A stretch of 44,986 nucleotides of DNA, taken from NCBI RefSeq assembly GCF_030756675.1, contig NZ_JAVBXD010000035.1, positions 1 to 44,986 on the forward strand. Reading direction: 5' to 3'. Source of the stretch: Bacillus multifaciens (GTDB lineage: Bacteria; Bacillota; Bacilli; Bacillales; Bacillaceae_G). Positions 4,896-42,037 of the stretch are shown piece after piece. The notes beneath the pieces were generated by a model that searched no databases, was not told where the DNA came from, and was given only the letters and a program-made list of their open reading frames with translations. The position numbers and the translations under genes are program-made. Within the stretch, counting starts at the first letter, position 1, and each line of letters starts with the position of its first letter.

Positions 4896-5189
4896 GTTAG
4901 TACCGTCCCTTATTCGTTTCTAAATTATTTTGCTTGATACTTGATAAAATCGTTAAGAACCTGATTTCACTCGCAATATTTTAACATAAATAACTAACTT
5001 TCTTTGGGAGGTTGCTTGGAACCCAGATTCTGTATTTGATGAAAGAGGGGCTATGCTTGCTTTCTAATTTGTTTAGTACATCTACTATCGGGTGCGTTCA
5101 AGAAGAAATTAACAGAGTCTTATATATAAATTCAATTTGTTTTTTAACATATAGATTGCTGTTATGAAAAAAAGGAACCTGCACTTGTT
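4896..5189. other. Intergenic stretch, no gene seen
   Basis: AT-rich sequence between the start of the 121-residue protein gene and the dispersed repeat. No ORF with a ribosome binding site was seen on either strand, nor a convincing hairpin. It presumably holds the promoter of the minus-strand gene at 4530-4895. Confidence 0.5.
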
Positions 5190-5290
5190 TGCTCTTTTTG
5201 GTTTTCACTGCGCATGTGGCAGAAATAGGCCCTGACCGATTCTATACATGGCTAGATGCTCTCGCCCACCGAAAAAGAAAAGGTTTTTTA
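5190..5290 (-). repeat. Dispersed repeat, full-length (copy 2 of 6)
   Basis: On the minus strand this reads ggtGGGCGAGAGCATCTAGCC, then an ATG-TATAGA-GGTCAGGGCC core, TGCCACATGCG and an A-rich tail. It matches the copies at 12786, 21813 and 42172. Nested inverted segments (GTGG with CCAC, CTGGCC with GGTCAG in the best copies) allow an RNA fold. It lies just downstream of ampS in the same orientation as ampS. Confidence 0.75.
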
Positions 5291-5320
5291 TGTTAGTTTT
5301 TCAATTTGTATCTATATAAT

Positions 5321-5355
5321 ACAAAAATGAGCACAACAACCTGTGCTCACTTTTT
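5321..5355 (-). terminator. Terminator of ampS
   Basis: Perfect 8-bp arms TGAGCACA (5328-5335) and TGTGCTCA (5342-5349) enclose a 6-nt loop. On the minus strand the hairpin is followed by a T-rich run (complement of 5321-5327), directly after the ampS stop codon. Confidence 0.75.
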
Positions 5356-5360
5356 CTATC

Positions 5361-6476
5361 TTATTTTAAGTTTTCAGGGTTTAACGCTTCTAATTCAGGT
5401 ACAACGAAGCGGCCGTCTTTACGGATTAATACGTCGTCGAAGTAAATTTCGCCGCCGCCGTATTCAGGGCGTTGGATGCATACTAAATCCCAGTGGATGT
5501 TAGAGTTGTTGCCATTCCATGCATCGTCGTATGCTTGTCCAGGAGTGAAGTGGAAGCTGCCATCGATTTTCTCATCGAATAGAATATCGCCCATTGGATG
5601 TAAAATGTATGGGTTTACGCCAATTGCGAATTCACCAACGTAGCGAGCTCCTTCATCTGTATCGAAAATTTTGTTAATGCGTTCTGTATCGTTTGCAGTT
5701 GCTTCAATAATTTGGCCGTCTTTAAATGTAAGTTTTACATTTTCGAACATGTAACCATTGTATGGAGATGGCGTGTTGTAAGAAACTGTACCGTTAACAG
5801 AATCGCGAACAGGCGCAGAGTATACTTCGCCGTCTGGAATATTTAAGTGACCAGCACATTTAATTGCTGGAATATCTTTAATAGAGAATGTTAAGTCAGT
5901 GCCAGGTCCAACAAGACGTACTTTATCTGTTTTGTTCATGAACGCAACAAGATTGTCCATCGCTTTATCCATTTTCGCGTAGTCTAAGTTACATACGTCA
6001 AAGTAGAAGTCTTCAAATCCTTCTGTGCTCATTTTTGCAAGCTGTGCCATCGCAGCGTTTGGATAGCGTAGTACAACCCATCTTGTTTTTGGAACACGAA
6101 TGTCTCTATGTACTTTTTTACCTACTGTGTTACCGTAAATTTTCATGCGCTCACTTGGAACGTCAGCTTGTTCATTTACGTTATCACCAGAGCGAAGGCC
6201 GATATAAGCGTCCATATCTTTCATTACGCTTGCTTCATATGCAGCGATTTGCTCGAAATGTTCTTCTGTTGCGCCCATCATTAAAGAGCGGTCTACTTGA
6301 TGATCTTTTAATAGTACGAATGGATAACCACCAGCTTCATATGCAGCCTTTACAAGTGCTGTTACTAGCTCTTTTTGTAAACCGAAGTTTTCGATTAATA
6401 CTTTTTCGCCTTTTTGTAAACGAATAGAGTAGTTAATTAAATTTTTTGCTAATGTTTCAATACGTGGGTCTTTCAT
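5361..6476 (-). CDS. ampS: Aminopeptidase, family M29 (AmpS/PepS type)
   Basis: A 371-residue cytosolic metallo-aminopeptidase of family M29, which removes N-terminal residues from peptides using two co-catalytic metal ions. Visible signatures are the KVLIENFG and KLTFKDGQI regions, the Glu ligand candidates in PDGEVY and VGEFAIG, and an I-H328-W-D330 pair that corresponds by pattern to the His/Asp ligands near the C-terminus of the family. Length is slightly below the approximately 410 aa of the B. subtilis and Thermus enzymes. AAGGGAGG precedes the ATG at 6476. The gene appears monocistronic, with its own terminator at 5321-5355. Confidence 0.92.
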   Translation of the reverse strand: MKDPRIETLAKNLINYSIRLQKGEKVLIENFGLQKELVTALVKAAYEAGGYPFVLLKDHQVDRSLMMGATEEHFEQIAAYEASVMKDMDAYIGLRSGDNVNEQADVPSERMKIYGNTVGKKVHRDIRVPKTRWVVLRYPNAAMAQLAKMSTEGFEDFYFDVCNLDYAKMDKAMDNLVAFMNKTDKVRLVGPGTDLTFSIKDIPAIKCAGHLNIPDGEVYSAPVRDSVNGTVSYNTPSPYNGYMFENVKLTFKDGQIIEATANDTERINKIFDTDEGARYVGEFAIGVNPYILHPMGDILFDEKIDGSFHFTPGQAYDDAWNGNNSNIHWDLVCIQRPEYGGGEIYFDDVLIRKDGRFVVPELEALNPENLK

Positions 6477-6600
6477 ATGTAAAGCCTCCCTTATATATGT
6501 ATCCTTCCTTATTGTAACCTACTTGTTTGAATTTGTTTAATAATTTATGTTTTATTTGGCAAATAAATATGAAAATTGGCACGAAATATCACTTTAAATT

Positions 6601-6658
6601 GAAAAAGTCAAACCCCACTCTTTTAGGTGGACAAGAGCAACTGGCCATGCATAGTAGC
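6601..6658 (+). repeat. Dispersed repeat, 5' half only (copy 3 of 6)
   Basis: Contains TTTTAGGTGGACAAGAGCAA, then CTGGCCATGCATAGTAGC, the left half of the element. The match stops exactly before the GGTCAGGGCC core, so it is the complement of the truncation seen in copy 1. It lies about 105 bp upstream of ytxG. Confidence 0.7.
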
Positions 6659-6765
6659 AATCTAAATGTTGAAAAATTAAAATGGATGTATGTAGAACAA
6701 TTAGAATGAAACGGAAAATGATTGTATAATAGAAAAAAGCATAAAAAGATAAAGGAGTGATTCGG

Positions 6766-7269
6766 ATGCAAATTCTTTTATACGTCAGTGTAGCCATTAT
6801 CGCAATTGCGTTTGCTGTATTAGTTGTTTATGTATGTCGAACATTACTATCTGTTCAAAAAACGTTAGAGAATGTAGCGAGTACGATGGAAGGCCTGGAA
6901 AAACAAATGCAGGGCATTTCAGTGGAAACAGAGCAACTTCTTCATAAAACAAATGCATTAGCAGATGATATTCAACAGAAATCGCAGTCGCTAAATAAAG
7001 TGATGGAAGGTGTAGAGGGAATCGGAACAACGATTCATTCCTTAAACACACGATTACGCGGTGTTTCTGATTCTGTTGCCCATCAAGTAGAAAACAATGC
7101 TGATAAAGTAGCACAAGTGGTGCAATGGAGTAATGCAGTCATTGACGTGTACAATCGCTTCCGTGCAAAAAAGAAAGAAGAGGAAGTAGAGCAGTTTGAA
7201 AGAACAGAGAAAAAGCCGAAAAAAGAAAAGAAATTACCGCGACTTCCGATTCGAATGAGAGGCGAATAA
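6766..7269 (+). CDS. ytxG: DUF948 general-stress-type membrane protein (YtxG)
   Basis: A 167-residue protein with one N-terminal membrane helix (about residues 2-26), then a long coiled-coil region with heptads around LEKQMQGISVETEQLL, and a highly basic lysine-rich tail (EKKPKKEKKLPR). This matches the DUF948 family, called YtxG in Bacillus. AAAGGAGTGA at 6751-6760 selects the ATG at 6766 over an in-frame ATG at 6757. A TATAAT at 6725-6730 is a likely -10. The stop codon is one base before ytxJ, so the two are an operon. In B. subtilis, as I recall it, ytxH lies between these genes; it is absent here. The biochemical role of YtxG is not established. Confidence 0.85.
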   Translation: MQILLYVSVAIIAIAFAVLVVYVCRTLLSVQKTLENVASTMEGLEKQMQGISVETEQLLHKTNALADDIQQKSQSLNKVMEGVEGIGTTIHSLNTRLRGVSDSVAHQVENNADKVAQVVQWSNAVIDVYNRFRAKKKEEEVEQFERTEKKPKKEKKLPRLPIRMRGE

Positions 7270-7270
7270 T

Positions 7271-7597
7271 ATGAGCATGACAAAGATTGATACAATGGAA
7301 CAATTTGAAGAAATCCTAGCAAGTAAAGAGCCATATATCTTGTTTAAACATAGCACAACATGTCCAATAAGCCACGGTGGTTTCACGGCGTTTCAAGAGT
7401 ACCTTGGTGAAGAGCAAGCTGTGCCAGCCTATTATTTATATGTACAAGATGCACGTCCAGTTTCTAACAGAATCGCGGAGTACTTTGGAATTAAACATGA
7501 ATCGCCGCAAGTATTATACATAAAAGATGGTAAAGTGCTCTGGCATGCATCGCATTGGAACATTACGAAGCAAGCATTAAAAGAAAATGTGAAATAA
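7271..7597 (+). CDS. ytxJ: YtxJ, thioredoxin-fold bacilliredoxin-like protein
   Basis: A 108-residue thioredoxin-like protein carrying a single-cysteine C31-P-I-S active site (HSTTCPISHGG), the cis-Pro region (SPQVLYIKDGK) and the expected 108-110 aa length. The family (monothiol bacilliredoxin, YtxJ) is thought to remove bacillithiol from mixed disulfides on proteins, which fits a Firmicute that makes bacillithiol. It starts one base after ytxG and its ribosome binding site lies within the ytxG 3' end, so it depends on ytxG transcription. A strong terminator follows at once. Confidence 0.88.
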   Translation: MSMTKIDTMEQFEEILASKEPYILFKHSTTCPISHGGFTAFQEYLGEEQAVPAYYLYVQDARPVSNRIAEYFGIKHESPQVLYIKDGKVLWHASHWNITKQALKENVK

Positions 7598-7600
7598 GGA

Positions 7601-7627
7601 AAAGCAAGCAAATACGCTTGCTTTTTT
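7601..7627 (+). terminator. Terminator of ytxG-ytxJ
   Basis: Perfect 9-bp arms AAAGCAAGC (7601-7609) and GCTTGCTTT (7616-7624), a 6-nt loop, then a continuing T tract. Confidence 0.85.
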
Positions 7628-7722
7628 TATTTTCTGAAAATAATATTGACGGGCTATATTTTTTACGATTAAATGAAGAGAAAATAACGATTCCACATGC
7701 AGTCTCATGCGATGTGTATGAA

Positions 7723-7751
7723 GTGACATCTGTATATGTATCATATATAAT
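7723..7751 (+). promoter_or_regulatory. SigA promoter of aroA
   Basis: GTGACA (7723-7728), a 17-bp spacer and TATAAT (7746-7751): one mismatch to the -35 consensus and a perfect -10. It lies about 70 bp before the aroA start. Confidence 0.7.
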
Positions 7752-7819
7752 AAATTATCTTATGAATGGTATTTATATTTGTTAGTATACATATAAAACT
7801 TGAAAGAGGTGGCTTTATT

Positions 7820-8890
7820 ATGGCATCACAGGAGTTAGATCGGTTACGTTCTCAAATTGATGAAATGAACTTACAAATCTTAAAGTTATTAAATGAGCGC
7901 GGTCGTCTTGTACAAGAAGTTGGCAAGTTAAAAGAAGTACAAGGTGTGAAACGTTTTGATCCAGTACGTGAACGCAAAATGCTCGATTTAATTGCGGACA
8001 ATAACGATGGACCATTTGAAACATCAACGCTTCAACATTTGTTTAAACAAATTTTTAAAACAGGCTTAGAATTGCAAGAAGATGATCATCGTAAGGCCCT
8101 TCTTGTATCACGTAAGAAAAAGTCAGATGATACAATTGTTGATATTAAAGGTGAAAAAATTGGTGACGGCAATGCTCATTTTATTATGGGACCATGTGCA
8201 GTTGAAAGCTATGAGCAAGTTCGTCAAGTTGCTGAGGCAATGAAAGAACAAGGCTTAAAACTGATGCGAGGCGGAGCATTTAAACCGCGTACATCACCAT
8301 ATGATTTCCAAGGTCTTGGCGTTGAAGGGTTGAAGATTTTACGCCAAGTAGCAGATGAGTATGATTTAGCTGTCATTAGTGAGATTTTAAATCCAAATGA
8401 TATTGAAATGGCGCTTGATTATGTAGATGTCATTCAAATTGGTGCTCGCAATATGCAAAACTTCGAGTTGTTAAAAGCAGCTGGTTCTGTGAATAAGCCG
8501 GTATTATTAAAACGAGGATTATCTGCAACAATCGAAGAGTTTATGTATGCGGCAGAATATATTATTGCACAAGGAAATGGCGATATTATTTTATGTGAGC
8601 GCGGTATTCGTACGTATGAGAAAGCAACGCGAAATACGTTAGATATTTCTGCTGTACCAATTTTAAAGAAAGAAACGCACTTGCCAGTTGTTGTTGATGT
8701 AACACATTCAACAGGACGCCGTGATTTATTATTACCAACTGCAAAAGCGGCAATGGCGATCGGCGCAGATGCGATTATGGCAGAAGTGCACCCAGATCCA
8801 GCTGTCGCACTTTCTGATTCAGCGCAGCAAATGGATATTCCTGAGTTCAATGCATTTATGAATGAATTAAAAGCATTTCGGATGAGATAG
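7820..8890 (+). CDS. aroA: Bifunctional chorismate mutase / 3-deoxy-7-phosphoheptulonate synthase
   Basis: A 356-residue fusion that carries out the first step of the shikimate pathway (PEP + erythrose-4-P to DAHP) and also has an AroQ-type chorismate mutase. Residues 1 to about 90 form the helical mutase domain ([20 protein letters not shown]). From about 120 onward is the type I-beta DAHP synthase barrel, with MGPCAVES, the [11 protein letters not shown] substrate motif and [11 protein letters not shown]. In this architecture the mutase domain serves as the sensor for feedback inhibition by prephenate or chorismate. AAGAGGTGG selects the ATG at 7820 (an upstream in-frame ATG at 7766 lacks a site). 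It is followed by a strong terminator and then ccpA, the order I recall for B. subtilis. Confidence 0.95.
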
Positions 8891-35997: not shown

Positions 35998-36627
35998 ATG
36001 AAGTGGCTTGCGATTGGAATTGGAATACTTATTTTGTTTGTCTTACTTATTTTGTTATCGAAATTATCGCTAAAAATTAGTTTGTTATATACCGAAACAG
36101 AAAAACAATGTTTGTTTCAAGTGAAGATATGGATGATTCATTATACGTTTGATGTGTTAGAGCGTATCGAAAAGCAGCAAAGGAAAACAAATCAAAAAAT
36201 TGACAAAGCAGAAGAGGAAGGCGGAACCGAGGAAAAATTTGTGGCATGGCTTGACAGTGCAGCGGAGATTATAAAAAGGCTGCAAGAAATCCATACTATG
36301 ATTAAAGATTTTCTGCAAAAAGTGAAAATCAACAATTGGAGATGGTATTCGCAAATTGGAACAGGTGATGCAGCGAGTACTGGAGTTATTACAGGCTATG
36401 CATGGTCAGTAAAAGGAATCATTGTTGGCGTTGCCGGACAATATGCAGAAATTATTGGTGCGCCGCAACTTGAGATTACTCCAATCTTTCAAGGGAAAAC
36501 TGTGGCATCACATTGTGAATTAACGGCTTCGTTTCGTATATATCGTGCAGTTAAGGCGGTAATTAAGCTGTTTATATTTTTGAAGAAGCAAGGAGTTATT
36601 ACGACAGATCATGCGATGCAGCAATAA
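35998..36627 (+). CDS. ytfI: DUF2953 membrane protein YtfI
   Basis: A 209-residue protein with one N-terminal membrane helix (about residues 2-24), then a beta-rich and helical domain typical of DUF2953 (KISLLYTETEKQCLFQVKIW; WYSQIGTGDAASTGVITGY). In B. subtilis ytfI precedes ytfJ and both are expressed in the forespore. Here the gap to ytfJ is 16 bp. A SigF-like promoter lies 25 bp upstream. Biochemical function is unknown. Confidence 0.88.
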   Translation: MKWLAIGIGILILFVLLILLSKLSLKISLLYTETEKQCLFQVKIWMIHYTFDVLERIEKQQRKTNQKIDKAEEEGGTEEKFVAWLDSAAEIIKRLQEIHTMIKDFLQKVKINNWRWYSQIGTGDAASTGVITGYAWSVKGIIVGVAGQYAEIIGAPQLEITPIFQGKTVASHCELTASFRIYRAVKAVIKLFIFLKKQGVITTDHAMQQ

Positions 36628-36643
36628 ATATAGGGAGGATTAT

Positions 36644-37039
36644 ATGGAACATCCAATTCAAGGATTAATGACAACAGCGATGCAGCATTTAAATCATATG
36701 ATTGATGTAAATACAATCATTGGTGATCCAATTCAGTCACCTGATGGAAGTGTCATCTTAACAGTTTCTAAAGTAAGCTTTGGATTTGCGGCAGGTGGTA
36801 GTGAATTTGGAAAACTGGAAAATAATAATCATCATCCATTTGGCGGCGGTAGCGGCGGCGGTGTTTCCATTAACCCGGTTGCTTTTCTCGTTGTAAATAG
36901 TGAAGGTGTGAAAGTACTTCATTTAGATAAACAGACGCATATACTTGATAAAATCATGGAATTAGCACCGCAAGCAGTTGATAAAGTGAAAGAAATGATG
37001 AACAAACAAAAAGATGAACAGCCGGAGTATGAAATATAG
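36644..37039 (+). CDS. ytfJ: Sporulation protein YtfJ/GerW
   Basis: A 131-residue spore protein of the GerW/YtfJ family. The family core is visible: MEHPIQGLMTTAMQHLNHMI, a strand-rich segment SPDGSVILTVSKVSFGFAAG, a glycine loop FGGGSGGGVSINPVAFLVV and a C-terminal acidic tail. The protein is needed for normal lysozyme-dependent or nutrient germination in B. cereus-like species (gerW), with details varying. GGGAGGAT precedes the ATG at 36644; 11 in-frame upstream codons were excluded. It is the second gene after the SigF-type promoter. Confidence 0.9.
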   Translation: MEHPIQGLMTTAMQHLNHMIDVNTIIGDPIQSPDGSVILTVSKVSFGFAAGGSEFGKLENNNHHPFGGGSGGGVSINPVAFLVVNSEGVKVLHLDKQTHILDKIMELAPQAVDKVKEMMNKQKDEQPEYEI

Positions 37040-37091
37040 AAAATGAAATGCACCTTTTGTAAAGGACGTTAAAAAATGATGCTACATGAAG

Positions 37092-37129
37092 AAGATGATT
37101 TCTGTATTAACAGAAATCATCTTTTTTAG
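37092..37129 (+). terminator. Terminator of ytfI-ytfJ
   Basis: AAGATGATTTCTG (37092-37104) pairs perfectly with CAGAAATCATCTT (37111-37123), then a T run. Confidence 0.88.
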
Positions 37130-37265
37130 ATTTATTCTGTTATTCGCGGGCAGTAAGACCCTTATAGAACGTATATATCATTTAACTCGGAAAATTAATT
37201 CTTTTTAATTTTATATTTATGTATAATGTAAAATATGGATTATTGTGGAAGGGGAGATCCAGCGT

Positions 37266-40200
37266 ATGAATGAAGTTATAGTTTCAAAATCCTTTTTTTC
37301 AAGGTATAAAACAATTGCAGATGCCGTAAAGGGTGCCTCACCAGGTACAACAATAGTAGTAAAACCTGGTGTGTATCGAGAAAATATCCATATTGATAAA
37401 GATATTAACATAATTAGCGAAGATGATAAGAATGATACTGTAATTGAAACGTTTCAAACAGCCTTTTTCATTGAGAATGGGAGCAAAACATTTATAAAAG
37501 GCATTCAAGTTCGTCAGCTTGGACAAGATGATGCAGCTTTAATAAATTGTTCTTCTGGAACAATACAAATACAAGACTGCGATATTTATCCTCAAAATGG
37601 TTCAGGTGTATGGGTGAACCGACAAGGGATATTGTATATGCAATTCTGTCAAATAACTGGTGGGTATACAAATGCAATCAACTTTGGAGAGGGAAGTCAA
37701 GGGACAATAGAAGATTGTGAAATACATGGGATGAAGGGTGAAAAATATCCATCTCTGTTTATTAATAATAGTAATCCGATTATAAAAAATTGCCGCATTT
37801 ATAATAGTGTGAGCAATGCTATTTTTATGAAAAATAATAGCAAACCATTTATAGAAAACTGTGACTTGTTTGATATACAAGATGCCATTCTGTATATATC
37901 TAATAGTGCTCCTACCATAAAGAAATGTAAAATACATGATGGACAAAGTAATGCTTTCCACATAGAAAAGGGAAGTAAACCGATAATAGAAAATTGTGAG
38001 ATATTTAAGTTTACAAATACAATGATATATATTCATGAGAGTCAGCCAGCTATGAAGGGTTGCAAAATGTTTGATGGAAACACAAATGCGGTAATTTTTA
38101 AAGAGCAGAGTGAAGGATTAATTGAGGAATGTGAAATATTTAATTTATTAGGTGAAGAATATCCAGCGATTTGGATAGAAACGAGTCAACCTACATGGAA
38201 GAAATGTAAAATTAGTTATACTGCAAGTAATGCTTATTATATAAGTGAAGGAAGTAAACCGGTAATAGAAAATTGTGAGATTTATAAAACGGAAGGCGAT
38301 GCTTTCCGAATTGTGAAGTCAGAGCCTAGCATTAGATTTTGTAAAATGTATGATGGGGAATCATCTGCTTTTTATATTCAAGAAGAAAGTCGACCTTTTA
38401 TTGAAGAGTGTGAAGCATTTAATTTTAAAGATCAAATTGTAGTAGTAATTACTAGTAGCCCGATGTTTAGAAGGTGTAAATTTCATGATGGTGAAGCGAA
38501 CGGAATATCATTTTATCAAAATGGCGGCGGCCTTTTTGAAGAATGTGAAATATATCAATTTTCAAATGAAAAATATTCTACTATATATGTTAACCAAGGT
38601 ATTCCGGAGTTTAAAAAATGTAAAATTTATAAGGGTACTAGAGATGCAATCTATTTAGAAAATAACAGTGGTTCCATCATGGAAGAATGTGAAGTCTGTC
38701 AATTTCAAAATGAATCCTATGCAATGATTCAAGGGGTACAAAGTAATTTGAAATTAATAAATTGTAAATTATATGAGGGGAATAATAATGCTTTTAATTT
38801 TATAGGAAACAGTCAGTTGACAATAGAGGGATGTGAAATATTTAATTTTTCTAGTGATAACTATTCAATGATTTGGATAGAGGAGAGTTATCTAACACTT
38901 ACAAAGAGTGAATTGTATAAAGGACAATATACGGCTGTAAATATTAATAAGAATAGCGTTGTTTCTATTGAAGATTGTAATATATCAGATTTCAATGAAG
39001 ATTGCGTAGAAATTTATGAGGAAAGCGAAGTATTGCTCCAACGAAATAAAATGTATAACTCTTTAAGAGGGGTTGGAGTCGTAAGTGGTAGCAACTCAAA
39101 AATAATAGAGTGTGATATATATGATTGCCAAGGAACAGCTGTCTGGCTAAATCAGGGACAAGCTACAATCGAGAAAATTCAAATTAAAAATTGTGGTGGG
39201 AATGCACTTAATATGAAAAATAATAGTAACGTTGGTTTTGTAAATGGGAGTATTTCTCAATTTGAATATCCAATGATATATAGTGAAGAAAGTCAATTTG
39301 ATGTAAAGGAAAGTAGTTTTAATCATTGTAAGAATCCAATATTTTTAGTGGAAAAAGAAAGTGAATTTTGGATAGAACAATGTGAAATGTCTCAAGTAGA
39401 GGAATCATCGGCAATTGAAATCAATTCACATGTAAAAGGTACTGTTCAAAAGTGTAACATTTATGATGCTTTTATGGGCATTAAGATTTCATCTGAAAGT
39501 CAAATTACTTTAAAGGATATCAAGTGTTTTGATATAGAAAAAACAGCTTATCAAATTACTGATGATCATTCAGCTACATTAGAAAATTGTAAAACGTATG
39601 TAGAAGTAACGCGTCAGAAAGTACAATCCACTAAAGAATCAAAAGAAGAAAAACAGGATGTAGAAGAAGTACAAGAACAGCAGGAAATTATAGAATCGAA
39701 CGATATAATGACAGAGTTAGAACGTTTTGTTGGAATGAATAGTATTAAGGAACAAATTAAATACTTAATTAACCTTGTAGAAATTACTCGTTATCGAAAA
39801 GAAGCAGGTCTTGACTCCGGGGGAGATATTAAACCAAAACATACCGTTTTTTATGGGAATCCAGGGACGGGAAAAACAACGATTGCTCGTTTGCTAGGGA
39901 AAGTATATAAATCACTTGGACTGCTTGAAAAAGGACATGTTGTTGAAGTAAAGCGTGAAGACTTGGTGGGAGCCTATATTGGTCATTCTGAAGAGAAAAC
40001 AAAACAGCGTATCGATGAAGCAATGGGCGGAGTTTTGTTTATTGATGAAGCATATTCGTTAAGTATTGAAGATGGAGCACGTGATTTTGGGAGACAAGTT
40101 ATTGAAGTTTTATTAGCAGCTCTTGAAAATCATCGCGGAGAATTTTTATGTATCGTTGCTGGTTATGAGAAAGAAATGGAACGATTTATTGCTTCTAATC

Positions 40201-41384
40201 CAGGTTTGAAAAGCCGTTTTGTATCTTATATGAAATTTGAAGATTATACACCAGATGAATTGATGGAAATTGGAAATCGCTTGTTAGATGATAAGAAGTA
40301 CCGCTTAACAGAGGAAGCGGAAAATTATGTATATGAACAATTTGTATGGCTGTATAGAAAGCGGGATGAACATTTTGGAAACGCACGTACGGTTCGGGAA
40401 CAAGTAGATAAATGGATTACATTGCAAGCGAACCGAATTAGTACATTACCAAGAAGTGAATGGAAGAACAAAGAAGTATTGACGACAATTCGTTTGGAGG
40501 ATGTTGAAAAAGCATTCCAACAAAGAGATGCAAGAAAAGTGGCTGTTCCAATTAATGAGAAATTACTACAAGAGCAAATGGACCGTTTGGATAGTTTAAT
40601 CGGTTTAACAAAGGTGAAAAAAGAAATTGAAAGATTAATCCAGCTTGTTTCTTATTATCGAGAAGAAGGTAAGGATATAAGAGAGCTTTCCATGCATATT
40701 TCGTTAATTGGTAATCCAGGAACAGGAAAAACAGAGGTTGCGCGAATTATTGCAAAAGTGTATGAGGCATTAGGAATTTTAGAGCGCGGAGATTGTGTGG
40801 AAGTAGACCGAAAAGAATTGGTTGATAAATATCAAGGGGGAACGGAAGAGAAAACAGCGGGTGTATTACAAAAAGCAATGGGAGGCACACTGTTTATTGA
40901 TGAGGCATATACATTGACGAATAAGGGGAGTAATGATTCTGGACATATAGCTGTGGAATTATTGCTAAAACAAATGGAAGATAAACGCGGAGAATTTATC
41001 GTATTAGTTGCTGGATATGAAGATGAGATGGAAGAGTTCCTTGATAGCAATAAAGGTCTTCGTCGTCGCTTTGATCGCCGCCTTGTATTTGAAGATTATA
41101 CACCAGAAGAAATGATTCAAATTGCAAATTATTATATGACTAAAAAGCTGTATAGTATGTCAGCCGAAGCAAGACACATGCTTGTTGAATATTTTACTTA
41201 TCTGTATGAAAATCGCGATAAAACATATGGGAATGCAGGTTTGGCTCGTAAGATTATTGAACAGGCAATGAAAAATTTAGATTATCGTATCGCTACCTTG
41301 CCAATAGAAGAGCGAATGGAAGAACGGAAATATACAATTAGTGTGGAAGATATACAGGCACTTTTACAACAACAGGAGCAATAA
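37266..41384 (+). CDS. Beta-helix / dual CbxX-SpoVK AAA+ ATPase fusion protein
   Basis: A 1372-residue protein without signal peptide or membrane segment. Residues 1 to about 780 form a right-handed parallel beta-helix: a pectate-lyase-like cap (YKTIADAVKGASPGTTIVVK), then about 30 coils of 22-26 residues, 24 of which have Cys at the same position (IENCEIF, IKKCKIHD, IEECEIYQ). A charged linker (about 780-820) follows. Then come two AAA+ domains of the CbxX/CfxQ/SpoVK class: Walker A GNPGTGKT at 864-871 and 1149-1156, Walker B LFIDEA ending at 929 and 1214, plus pore and Arg-finger regions (SNPGLKSRF; SNKGLRRRFDRR). Both Walker sets are intact. GGGGAG 9 nt upstream selects the ATG at 37266, and TATAAT is at 37222-37227. 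It separates ytfJ from tpx. Function is unknown; cytosolic protein remodelling on a beta-helix platform is inference. Confidence 0.93.
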   Translation: MNEVIVSKSFFSRYKTIADAVKGASPGTTIVVKPGVYRENIHIDKDINIISEDDKNDTVIETFQTAFFIENGSKTFIKGIQVRQLGQDDAALINCSSGTIQIQDCDIYPQNGSGVWVNRQGILYMQFCQITGGYTNAINFGEGSQGTIEDCEIHGMKGEKYPSLFINNSNPIIKNCRIYNSVSNAIFMKNNSKPFIENCDLFDIQDAILYISNSAPTIKKCKIHDGQSNAFHIEKGSKPIIENCEIFKFTNTMIYIHESQPAMKGCKMFDGNTNAVIFKEQSEGLIEECEIFNLLGEEYPAIWIETSQPTWKKCKISYTASNAYYISEGSKPVIENCEIYKTEGDAFRIVKSEPSIRFCKMYDGESSAFYIQEESRPFIEECEAFNFKDQIVVVITSSPMFRRCKFHDGEANGISFYQNGGGLFEECEIYQFSNEKYSTIYVNQGIPEFKKCKIYKGTRDAIYLENNSGSIMEECEVCQFQNESYAMIQGVQSNLKLINCKLYEGNNNAFNFIGNSQLTIEGCEIFNFSSDNYSMIWIEESYLTLTKSELYKGQYTAVNINKNSVVSIEDCNISDFNEDCVEIYEESEVLLQRNKMYNSLRGVGVVSGSNSKIIECDIYDCQGTAVWLNQGQATIEKIQIKNCGGNALNMKNNSNVGFVNGSISQFEYPMIYSEESQFDVKESSFNHCKNPIFLVEKESEFWIEQCEMSQVEESSAIEINSHVKGTVQKCNIYDAFMGIKISSESQITLKDIKCFDIEKTAYQITDDHSATLENCKTYVEVTRQKVQSTKESKEEKQDVEEVQEQQEIIESNDIMTELERFVGMNSIKEQIKYLINLVEITRYRKEAGLDSGGDIKPKHTVFYGNPGTGKTTIARLLGKVYKSLGLLEKGHVVEVKREDLVGAYIGHSEEKTKQRIDEAMGGVLFIDEAYSLSIEDGARDFGRQVIEVLLAALENHRGEFLCIVAGYEKEMERFIASNPGLKSRFVSYMKFEDYTPDELMEIGNRLLDDKKYRLTEEAENYVYEQFVWLYRKRDEHFGNARTVREQVDKWITLQANRISTLPRSEWKNKEVLTTIRLEDVEKAFQQRDARKVAVPINEKLLQEQMDRLDSLIGLTKVKKEIERLIQLVSYYREEGKDIRELSMHISLIGNPGTGKTEVARIIAKVYEALGILERGDCVEVDRKELVDKYQGGTEEKTAGVLQKAMGGTLFIDEAYTLTNKGSNDSGHIAVELLLKQMEDKRGEFIVLVAGYEDEMEEFLDSNKGLRRRFDRRLVFEDYTPEEMIQIANYYMTKKLYSMSAEARHMLVEYFTYLYENRDKTYGNAGLARKIIEQAMKNLDYRIATLPIEERMEERKYTISVEDIQALLQQQEQ

Positions 41385-41536: not shown

Positions 41537-42037
41537 ATGGCAAACGTAACGTTTAAAGGAAACCCAATCACTTTAGTTGGCACAGAAGTTAAAGTAGGCG
41601 ATCAAGCACCGAACTTCCAAGTGTTAGCAAATGATTTATCTCCGGTAACTTTAGAAACATATAAAGGCGCAGTGAAATTAATTAGTGTTGTACCATCTAT
41701 TGATACAGGTGTATGTGATGCGCAAACTCGTCGTTTCAACGAAGATGCAGCTAGCATTGAAAACGCAAAAGTATTAACAATTAGCGTTGATTTACCATTT
41801 GCTCAAAAGCGTTGGTGTGCAGCTAACGGTTTAGAGAATGTTGCAACGCTTTCTGATCACCGCGACCTTTCTTTTGGTGAGGCATACGGTGTTGTAATGA
41901 AAGAACTTCGTTTGCTTGCACGTGCAGTATTCGTAGTAGATAGCAACGACAAAGTTGTTTACGTAGAGTACGTAAGTGAAGGTACAAGCCATCCAAATTA
42001 CGAAGCAGCATTAGAAGCAGCAAAAGCTGCGAAGTAA
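41537..42037 (+). CDS. tpx: Thiol peroxidase (atypical 2-Cys peroxiredoxin)
   Basis: A 166-residue peroxiredoxin that reduces hydrogen peroxide and organic peroxides with electrons from thioredoxin. The peroxidatic C60 is in [15 protein letters not shown] and the resolving C94 in KRWCAANG, the same numbering offset as E. coli Tpx (C61/C95). GGGAGGA precedes the ATG, and a strong terminator follows. In B. subtilis it lies next to ytfJ, as I recall; here the beta-helix ATPase gene intervenes. Confidence 0.96.

Follow-up and report, generated by a model that had tools for sequence, protein, structure and literature searches.

The closest described relatives of the protein discussed here, which is encoded by a single gene at positions 37266..41384 (+ strand) of a 44,986-nucleotide stretch of Bacillus multifaciens DNA (contig NZ_JAVBXD010000035.1; "the window" denotes this whole stretch), are AAA+ ATPases of the SpoVK-CbbX-EccA clade. 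According to the accessible portions of a 2023 preprint, known members of this clade are chaperones of narrow range that lack an association with peptidases and differ in the N-terminal domains by which they recruit (PMC10659427). SpoVK of the Bacillus subtilis type, described in the same portions as restricted to sporulating firmicutes (PMC10659427), resembles the window protein in its AAA+ clade, its motifs and its tyrosine pore loop, but has one module and a short N-terminal domain, and falls in a separate clade of our trees. CbbX, the activase of red-type Rubisco, provides the best solved-structure match of the window AAA part (3zuh/3syk, E ~5e-63, followed by EccA1, 9lur), but the copy that we fetched has one module and adjoins Rubisco genes, and no Rubisco gene is present among the 15 window genes examined. 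EccA of mycobacterial type VII secretion belongs to the same AAA+ clade and places an N-terminal interaction domain before the motor, where the window protein has its beta-helix; the fetched copy has one motor module. The standard EccA N-terminus is a TPR domain, and a beta-helix is also listed among EccA N-termini in the accessible part of the preprint (PMC10659427). The Pfam list of the window protein contains no TPR. NosD of the NosDFY transporter is an extracytosolic protein with an ABC ATPase as its partner, and thus differs from the window protein, whose ATPase is a fused AAA+ motor.

No functional study of a beta-helix/AAA+ fusion was found in the open-licence literature, where the 2023 preprint, in its accessible text, names a beta-helix in the clade (PMC10659427) and the accessible part of another report concerns a different beta-helix domain (PMC11237479). 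The architecture is real and striking, has already been glimpsed in print, and occurs here in a separate Bacilli branch.

Arm, linker and double motor

The gene is one open frame of 1372 amino acids, in which open reading frame (ORF) analysis and domain matches delimit a beta-helix, a linker and two AAA+ modules. A preliminary description, made from the sequence alone, had proposed just this fusion, with about 30 helical coils, intact ATPase motifs and no secretion signal, and all of these features are borne out below. Its possible origin as a frame-join artefact is ruled out by the single open frame and by the same domain order in nine other single genes. Residues 1–778 (37266..39599, +) form the right-handed parallel beta-helix arm, as indicated by Pfam, self-identity, AlphaFold2 and fold search, with ~33 coils as estimated from their spacing. 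Pfam Beta_helix matches six stretches of this region, and repeated coils of ~22–25 residues are combined with a predicted solenoid, as in right-handed parallel beta-helices generally. The self-identity profile has its highest maxima at 45 and 48 residues, followed by 93 and 23, so that the true unit of the arm is a pair of coils. AlphaFold2, run from the single sequence, models the arm as a long solenoid (best model: predicted local distance difference test score, pLDDT, 80.8; predicted template modelling score, pTM, 0.72). The Foldseek and VIA-align hits listed are, by title, beta-helix proteins, among them adhesins, tailspikes, alginate lyases, epimerases and NosD; the Foldseek template modelling scores are low, VIA-align re-ranks the Foldseek list, and a common fold is no proof of function. 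No tandem repeats above threshold were detected in the arm at the DNA level. An N-terminal hydrophobic segment is absent, and the protein looks cytosolic.

Of the 33 cysteines of the protein, 31 lie within the arm, 23 of them at a ladder motif. From Cys 151 to Cys 523 (17 coils; 37716..38834, +), the residue that follows the ladder cysteine alternates without a break between acid and base. When ladder motifs are counted over the arm, neighbouring coils carry opposite charges in 16/19 pairs and the same charge in none, a result reached by 0 of 2000 permutations. Similar alternation is found in the arms of two Bacilli relatives introduced below, L147 (12/17 pairs, one with the same charge) and L144 (6/8). 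As a general rule for such arms it was rejected, being clear in these 3 of 24 arms and not seen in the other 21, many of which offered few coil pairs for testing (0 to 9; L183 was left out). The first 775 residues have a net charge of -38, which makes nucleic-acid binding unlikely. The arm is followed by a charged linker (residues 779–812; 39600..39701, +), recognized by its composition and by pLDDT values <50 for residues 781–800.

Domain matches, tree position and motif alignment define the two AAA+ modules with their lids. Module 1 (residues 813–1085; 39702..40520, +) contains the Walker A sequence GNPGTGKT (39855..39878, +) and the Walker B sequence GVLFIDEAY (40029..40055, +); module 2 (residues 1098–1366; 40557..41363, +) contains GNPGTGKT (40710..40733, +) and GTLFIDEAY (40884..40910, +). 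Both modules also keep the GY of sensor 1, the asparagine with the arginine finger, and the lid. Judged from their sequences, both are AAA+ modules of the SpoVK-CbbX-EccA clade, the criteria for which, as given in the accessible part of the preprint, include the GY signature at sensor 1 (PMC10659427). This signature is found in VAGYEKEM and VAGYEDEM, and an asparagine stands shortly before the arginine finger in NPGLKSRF and NKGLRRRF; the same source places it four residues before the finger (PMC10659427), a distance that depends on which arginine is counted. AAA_lid_6 (PF17866) matches in two stretches. At sensor 2, module 1 reads GNAR..R and module 2 GNAG..R, so that in the latter the first arginine is lost and the second kept. 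NAR or NGR is found at this place in module 1, SpoVK (8/8), CbbX (one) and EccA (one), and NAG in 10 of the 11 Bacilli second modules with letters there. Pore loop 1 has a tyrosine in both window modules (AYIG, KYQG). The CbbX model TIGR02880 scores 422.7, under its cut-off of 459.25.

Two histories of an armed double motor

That the combination is unprecedented is a view that has to be given up: further Bacilli share this domain order, as do type VII loci of Streptomyces, besides the beta-helix EccA N-terminus named in the accessible text of the preprint (PMC10659427). The Streptomyces proteins, plasmid-borne right-handed parallel beta-helix repeat-containing proteins with tandem AAA modules (e.g., WP_326813255.1), have a similar coil period and belong to the same AAA+ clade. 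They differ from the window protein in their ~21–28 % identity in listed matches covering >=95 % of the protein, in the absence of an aromatic residue from the first-module pore loop (10/10, whereas the window has Tyr), in their linkage to EccC and in the separate duplication of their AAA pair. Fourteen Streptomyces loci were fetched out of 40 listed rows; all but one of these 14 (13, the exception being L179) encode EccC in the 12-kb flanks around the beta-helix AAA gene, an eccC annotation is present in 11 of the 12 annotated loci, and three of the 14 (L183, L187, L188) have one AAA module each. Among plasmid records with a match, 22/292 cover at least 80 % of the protein.

Trees of the individual modules provide the evidence for separate histories. 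In a tree of 76 rows, modules 1 and 2 of the Bacilli proteins group together as 23 rows (97/95), and so do the Streptomyces modules, likewise 23 rows (96/98). The sole EccA row in this tree sits on a very long branch and was left out of a 50-row set, from which 26 rows in total, comprising long branches (L177, L151, L088, EccA, L152) and near-duplicates, had been removed. The 50-row tree again contains a Bacilli set (16 rows, 99/97) and a Streptomyces set (15 rows, 100/100), with the SpoVK rows as their own starred clade (100/100), apart from the window modules (99/97). Forcing the first modules of Bacilli and Streptomyces together costs 89 log-likelihood units and is rejected by the approximately unbiased (AU) test (p 0.0001), run on the 50-row set with groups that had been chosen once the first tree was known. 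One duplicated ancestor for both AAA pairs is thereby rejected, and the two clades together with this test indicate that the double motor arose separately in Bacilli and Streptomyces. Note that this separate origin concerns the AAA+ pair, as the arm repeats align with almost any beta-helix.

Relatives in Bacilli and the ytfJ-tpx site

Relatives of the window protein occur sporadically in Bacilli, as nine single genes (L145, L146, L147, L172–L177), one split set (L144) and one broken copy (L148). Close relatives were detected in 2/299 genomes of an order sample (G137, G191) and in 3/398 of a class sample (G569, G430, G543), where the two or three top candidates scored per genome leave room for misses; a further scan gave 0/398 at E 1e-90, a strict limit applied to two or three top candidates per genome and set without a positive control. 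In family samples, seeds included, 2/23, 1/7 and 7/151 genomes have a relative. The arms of L144–L147 are confirmed by Pfam, and those of L172–L177 are recognized by a 45-residue period that lies above the maximum of 100 shuffles in 6/6 cases. Single-domain arms range from ~445 residues (L144, where the arm is a whole gene) to 790, with a period of 45–46 residues, and their lengths vary among relatives in two-coil units. L145 (8724–12770, −) has an extra region between beta-helix and AAA pair (residues ~590–760); neither this region nor the tail of the L144 arm has a credible Pfam match. We also would like to point out seven other Bacilli tandem SpoVK-clade AAA proteins (L088, L149, L150, L151, L152, L153, L178), which have different N-terminal parts and lie outside the branch; in one of these genomes (G335, L150) the AAA gene is ~11.5 kb from EssC.

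The split set of genome G137 is of particular relevance for the arm. At L144 6361–11760, three genes on one strand, separated by gaps of 22 and 77 bases, encode a beta-helix protein (445 aa), an Hsp70 (505 aa; PF00012, E 4e-144) and an 814-aa TPR-AAA-AAA protein with TPR-like matches and two AAA modules. This AAA pair is the top-scoring match to that of the window (54 %, 662.7 bits). A type IV coupling-protein gene lies ~1 kb upstream of the trio, which has the look of a mobile chaperone set of three genes, and a separate arm gene beside Hsp70 and TPR-AAA-AAA fits the arm as the recruiting module of a chaperone machine.

The relatives sit at unrelated places, and neighbours recur just among close kin (L172/L173; L175–L177); no gene recurs beside them across loci, where there are scattered single matches. 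In G569, two similar short ORFs (L146 6148–6432 and 10785–11075; 94 and 96 aa) flank the relative, the second without a Pfam match. A phage origin was considered and rejected: among the 30 matching phage records none spans 80 % of the protein, the 25 listed match the AAA part alone, and a scan of viruses with the AAA part was negative. SpoVK/CbbX-like AAA proteins are present in Bacillus phage G (gp596; 39 % identity) and in Brevibacillus phage Emery (34 %).

In the window, the gene lies between ytfJ (GerW family; 36611..37039, +; TIGR02874, 169.9 bits, cut-off 116.3) and tpx (41537..42037, +; NF001808, 246.6 bits). A sequence scan identified an intrinsic terminator-like hairpin of 19 pairs with a T-rich tail after ytfJ (37087..37128, +), one of 2 such sites in the region against a shuffle mean of 1.7. 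The ATG at 37266 is preceded by a putative ribosome-binding site, AAGGGGAG (37249..37256, +). Directly upstream of the gene there is no sigma-70 match at 9/12, and TATAAT at 37222 is merely suggestive as a promoter. A stretch 5' of the tpx start is common to the window and Ectobacillus panaciterrae in a flank alignment; together with the hairpin, this makes the gene look self-contained, set between two old neighbours. Its GC content at third codon positions, 0.229, is slightly under that of nine other window genes (0.252–0.300).

That the insertion between ytfJ and tpx is lineage-specific, as first proposed, is supported by 80 loci fetched around ackA among the matches listed, with titles nearly all Bacillaceae: 69 of them contain ytfJ and tpx together, and none matches this protein at E 1e-10. 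The ytfJ-tpx spacing is 73–1358 bp in these loci except L079, where it reaches 3527 bp and the gap is occupied (4923–8213) by ORFs that appear, by eye, to encode glycosyltransferase-type and membrane proteins; genes have thus entered this gap on more than one occasion. Of the 80 listed loci, that of E. panaciterrae has the nearest ackA (85 %), and all 19 genomes of the E. panaciterrae family contain just single-module matches (frames of ~320–380 aa) or short matches in Clp-sized frames.

Candidate functions

What remains common to the Bacilli branch is the arm with its double motor. With the clade description in the accessible part of the preprint (PMC10659427), this leads us to propose that the gene probably, if by a modest measure, encodes a stand-alone, horizontally acquired cytosolic remodelling chaperone, in which the arm recruits clients and stacked rings pull the client tail. 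The domains and motifs, the Bacilli-only clade of both modules, the gene's own putative ribosome site with the hairpin upstream, and the unrelated locations all agree with such a role. Ring formation and an arm that serves for recognition, both raised in the preliminary description, are plausible. The AAA+ modules would stack as two hexameric rings. A beta-helix rises by 4.8 angstrom per coil, and 33 coils would therefore give six arms of ~16 nm projecting from the ring. Along their side, the arms would bind a single dedicated client or class of clients, and the pore loops would pull its exposed tail under ATP hydrolysis, so that the client might be reshaped, assembled or released, and not degraded; no protease or secretion gene is found among the gene's immediate neighbours in the window. 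As the first sensor-2 arginine of module 2 is lost in nearly all of the Bacilli branch, the two rings probably contribute unequally to the work, and two-coil differences in arm length would retune reach or client surface.

Several observations weigh against this proposal. It is built on genes and homology, with client, partner, oligomer and activity all predicted, and the horizontal acquisition is deduced from patchy presence and not from a tree of transfer events. For the AAA+ pair (residues 781–1372), AlphaFold without an alignment gives an unusable model (pLDDT 43.5), so ring formation is argued from homology. The pore-loop position is variable in the branch, with 5 Tyr, 2 Phe and 4 His residues among the first modules (n=11), and 4 Tyr, 1 Phe and 7 His among the second (n=12). 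The second AAA module of L177 (9347–12925, −) is degenerate, lacking the DE of Walker B and the arginine finger, next to an intact first module. Moreover, among the 11 relatives L147 lacks the second lid and L148 is broken, which suggests that the function is dispensable.

Two of the alternatives, links to type VII secretion and to sporulation, had been suggested in the preliminary description, and both are weakened for the Bacilli branch, though still conceivable for the window's host. An EccA-like chaperone that, as in Streptomyces, feeds substrates to EssC/EccC is improbable: the EccC linkage of the Streptomyces loci and the beta-helix listed among EccA N-termini speak for it, as does the score of the AAA pair to the EccA model TIGR03922 (446.9 bits), which is however under the cut-off of 466.65 and stems from two matched stretches. 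At E 1e-8, the EccB, EccC, EccD and mycosin proteins of Streptomyces have no match in the 11 Bacilli relative loci (8–20 kb) or in the 45-kb window, which covers just 3.6 kb downstream of the gene; EssC exceeds its cut-off in just 3/11 genomes with a copy (completeness of these genomes is not stated), and a common clade of the two groups' first modules fails the AU test. A sporulation or spore-envelope role, in which a SpoVK relative would activate an envelope enzyme, also merits little confidence, even though the gene adjoins the sporulation gene ytfJ and the SpoVK model score (474.8) is over its cut-off (422.95). This score again stems from two matched stretches, SpoVK proteins form another clade, G430 and G543 list separate single-module matches, and the terminator-like hairpin stands between ytfJ and the gene. 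SpoIVA was found in 8/11 genomes with a copy and not in the other 3, so the restriction to spore formers described for SpoVK does not extend to these relatives. EssC in 3/11 genomes and the three without SpoIVA imply that the Bacilli branch requires neither type VII secretion nor sporulation.

The sporadic presence and the broken copy could also point to an accessory defence or conflict gene, whose arm recognizes a foreign protein or particle that the motor disrupts, and the tailspikes and adhesins among the fold matches, with partial PADLOC matches of the AAA part to IetA, DolB, TRIP13 and mad8, are in line with it. We nevertheless consider such a role unlikely, as the PADLOC matches concern AAA parts of other families, the fold matches show no function, and the window neighbours named by Pfam and NCBIfam look housekeeping. 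Least credible is a carbohydrate-active or -binding helix in a machine that acts on polysaccharide or its synthesis enzymes. Its indications are a weak pectinesterase match of residues 5–85 (E 0.004) and the lyases and epimerases among the fold matches; the coils, however, are near-regular without an obvious unique cleft (by eye), those of L147 repeat at 50 % identity, and the protein looks cytosolic.

Returning to the remodelling chaperone, a speculative and rather doubtful extension is that bacteria built a solenoid-armed double-motor chaperone at least twice, the arm being an exchangeable module that acts in cis, or in trans with Hsp70 and a TPR-AAA pair. The window arm, as a regular charge-alternating cysteine-ladder track, could then serve as template or ruler for a long, repetitive client during pulling by the rings. 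That two phyla came separately to a double motor behind an arm suggests a useful combination, and the operon in which the arm is split off beside Hsp70 offers a natural test of the arm's purpose. As the gene seems self-contained, it can go into B. subtilis for direct testing. The protein looks like a rare, mobile molecular-chaperone machine. Few members of the SpoVK-CbbX-EccA clade have a known target, and a branch with a doubled motor, a very long rigid arm and single-gene mobility would widen the repertoire of these chaperones.

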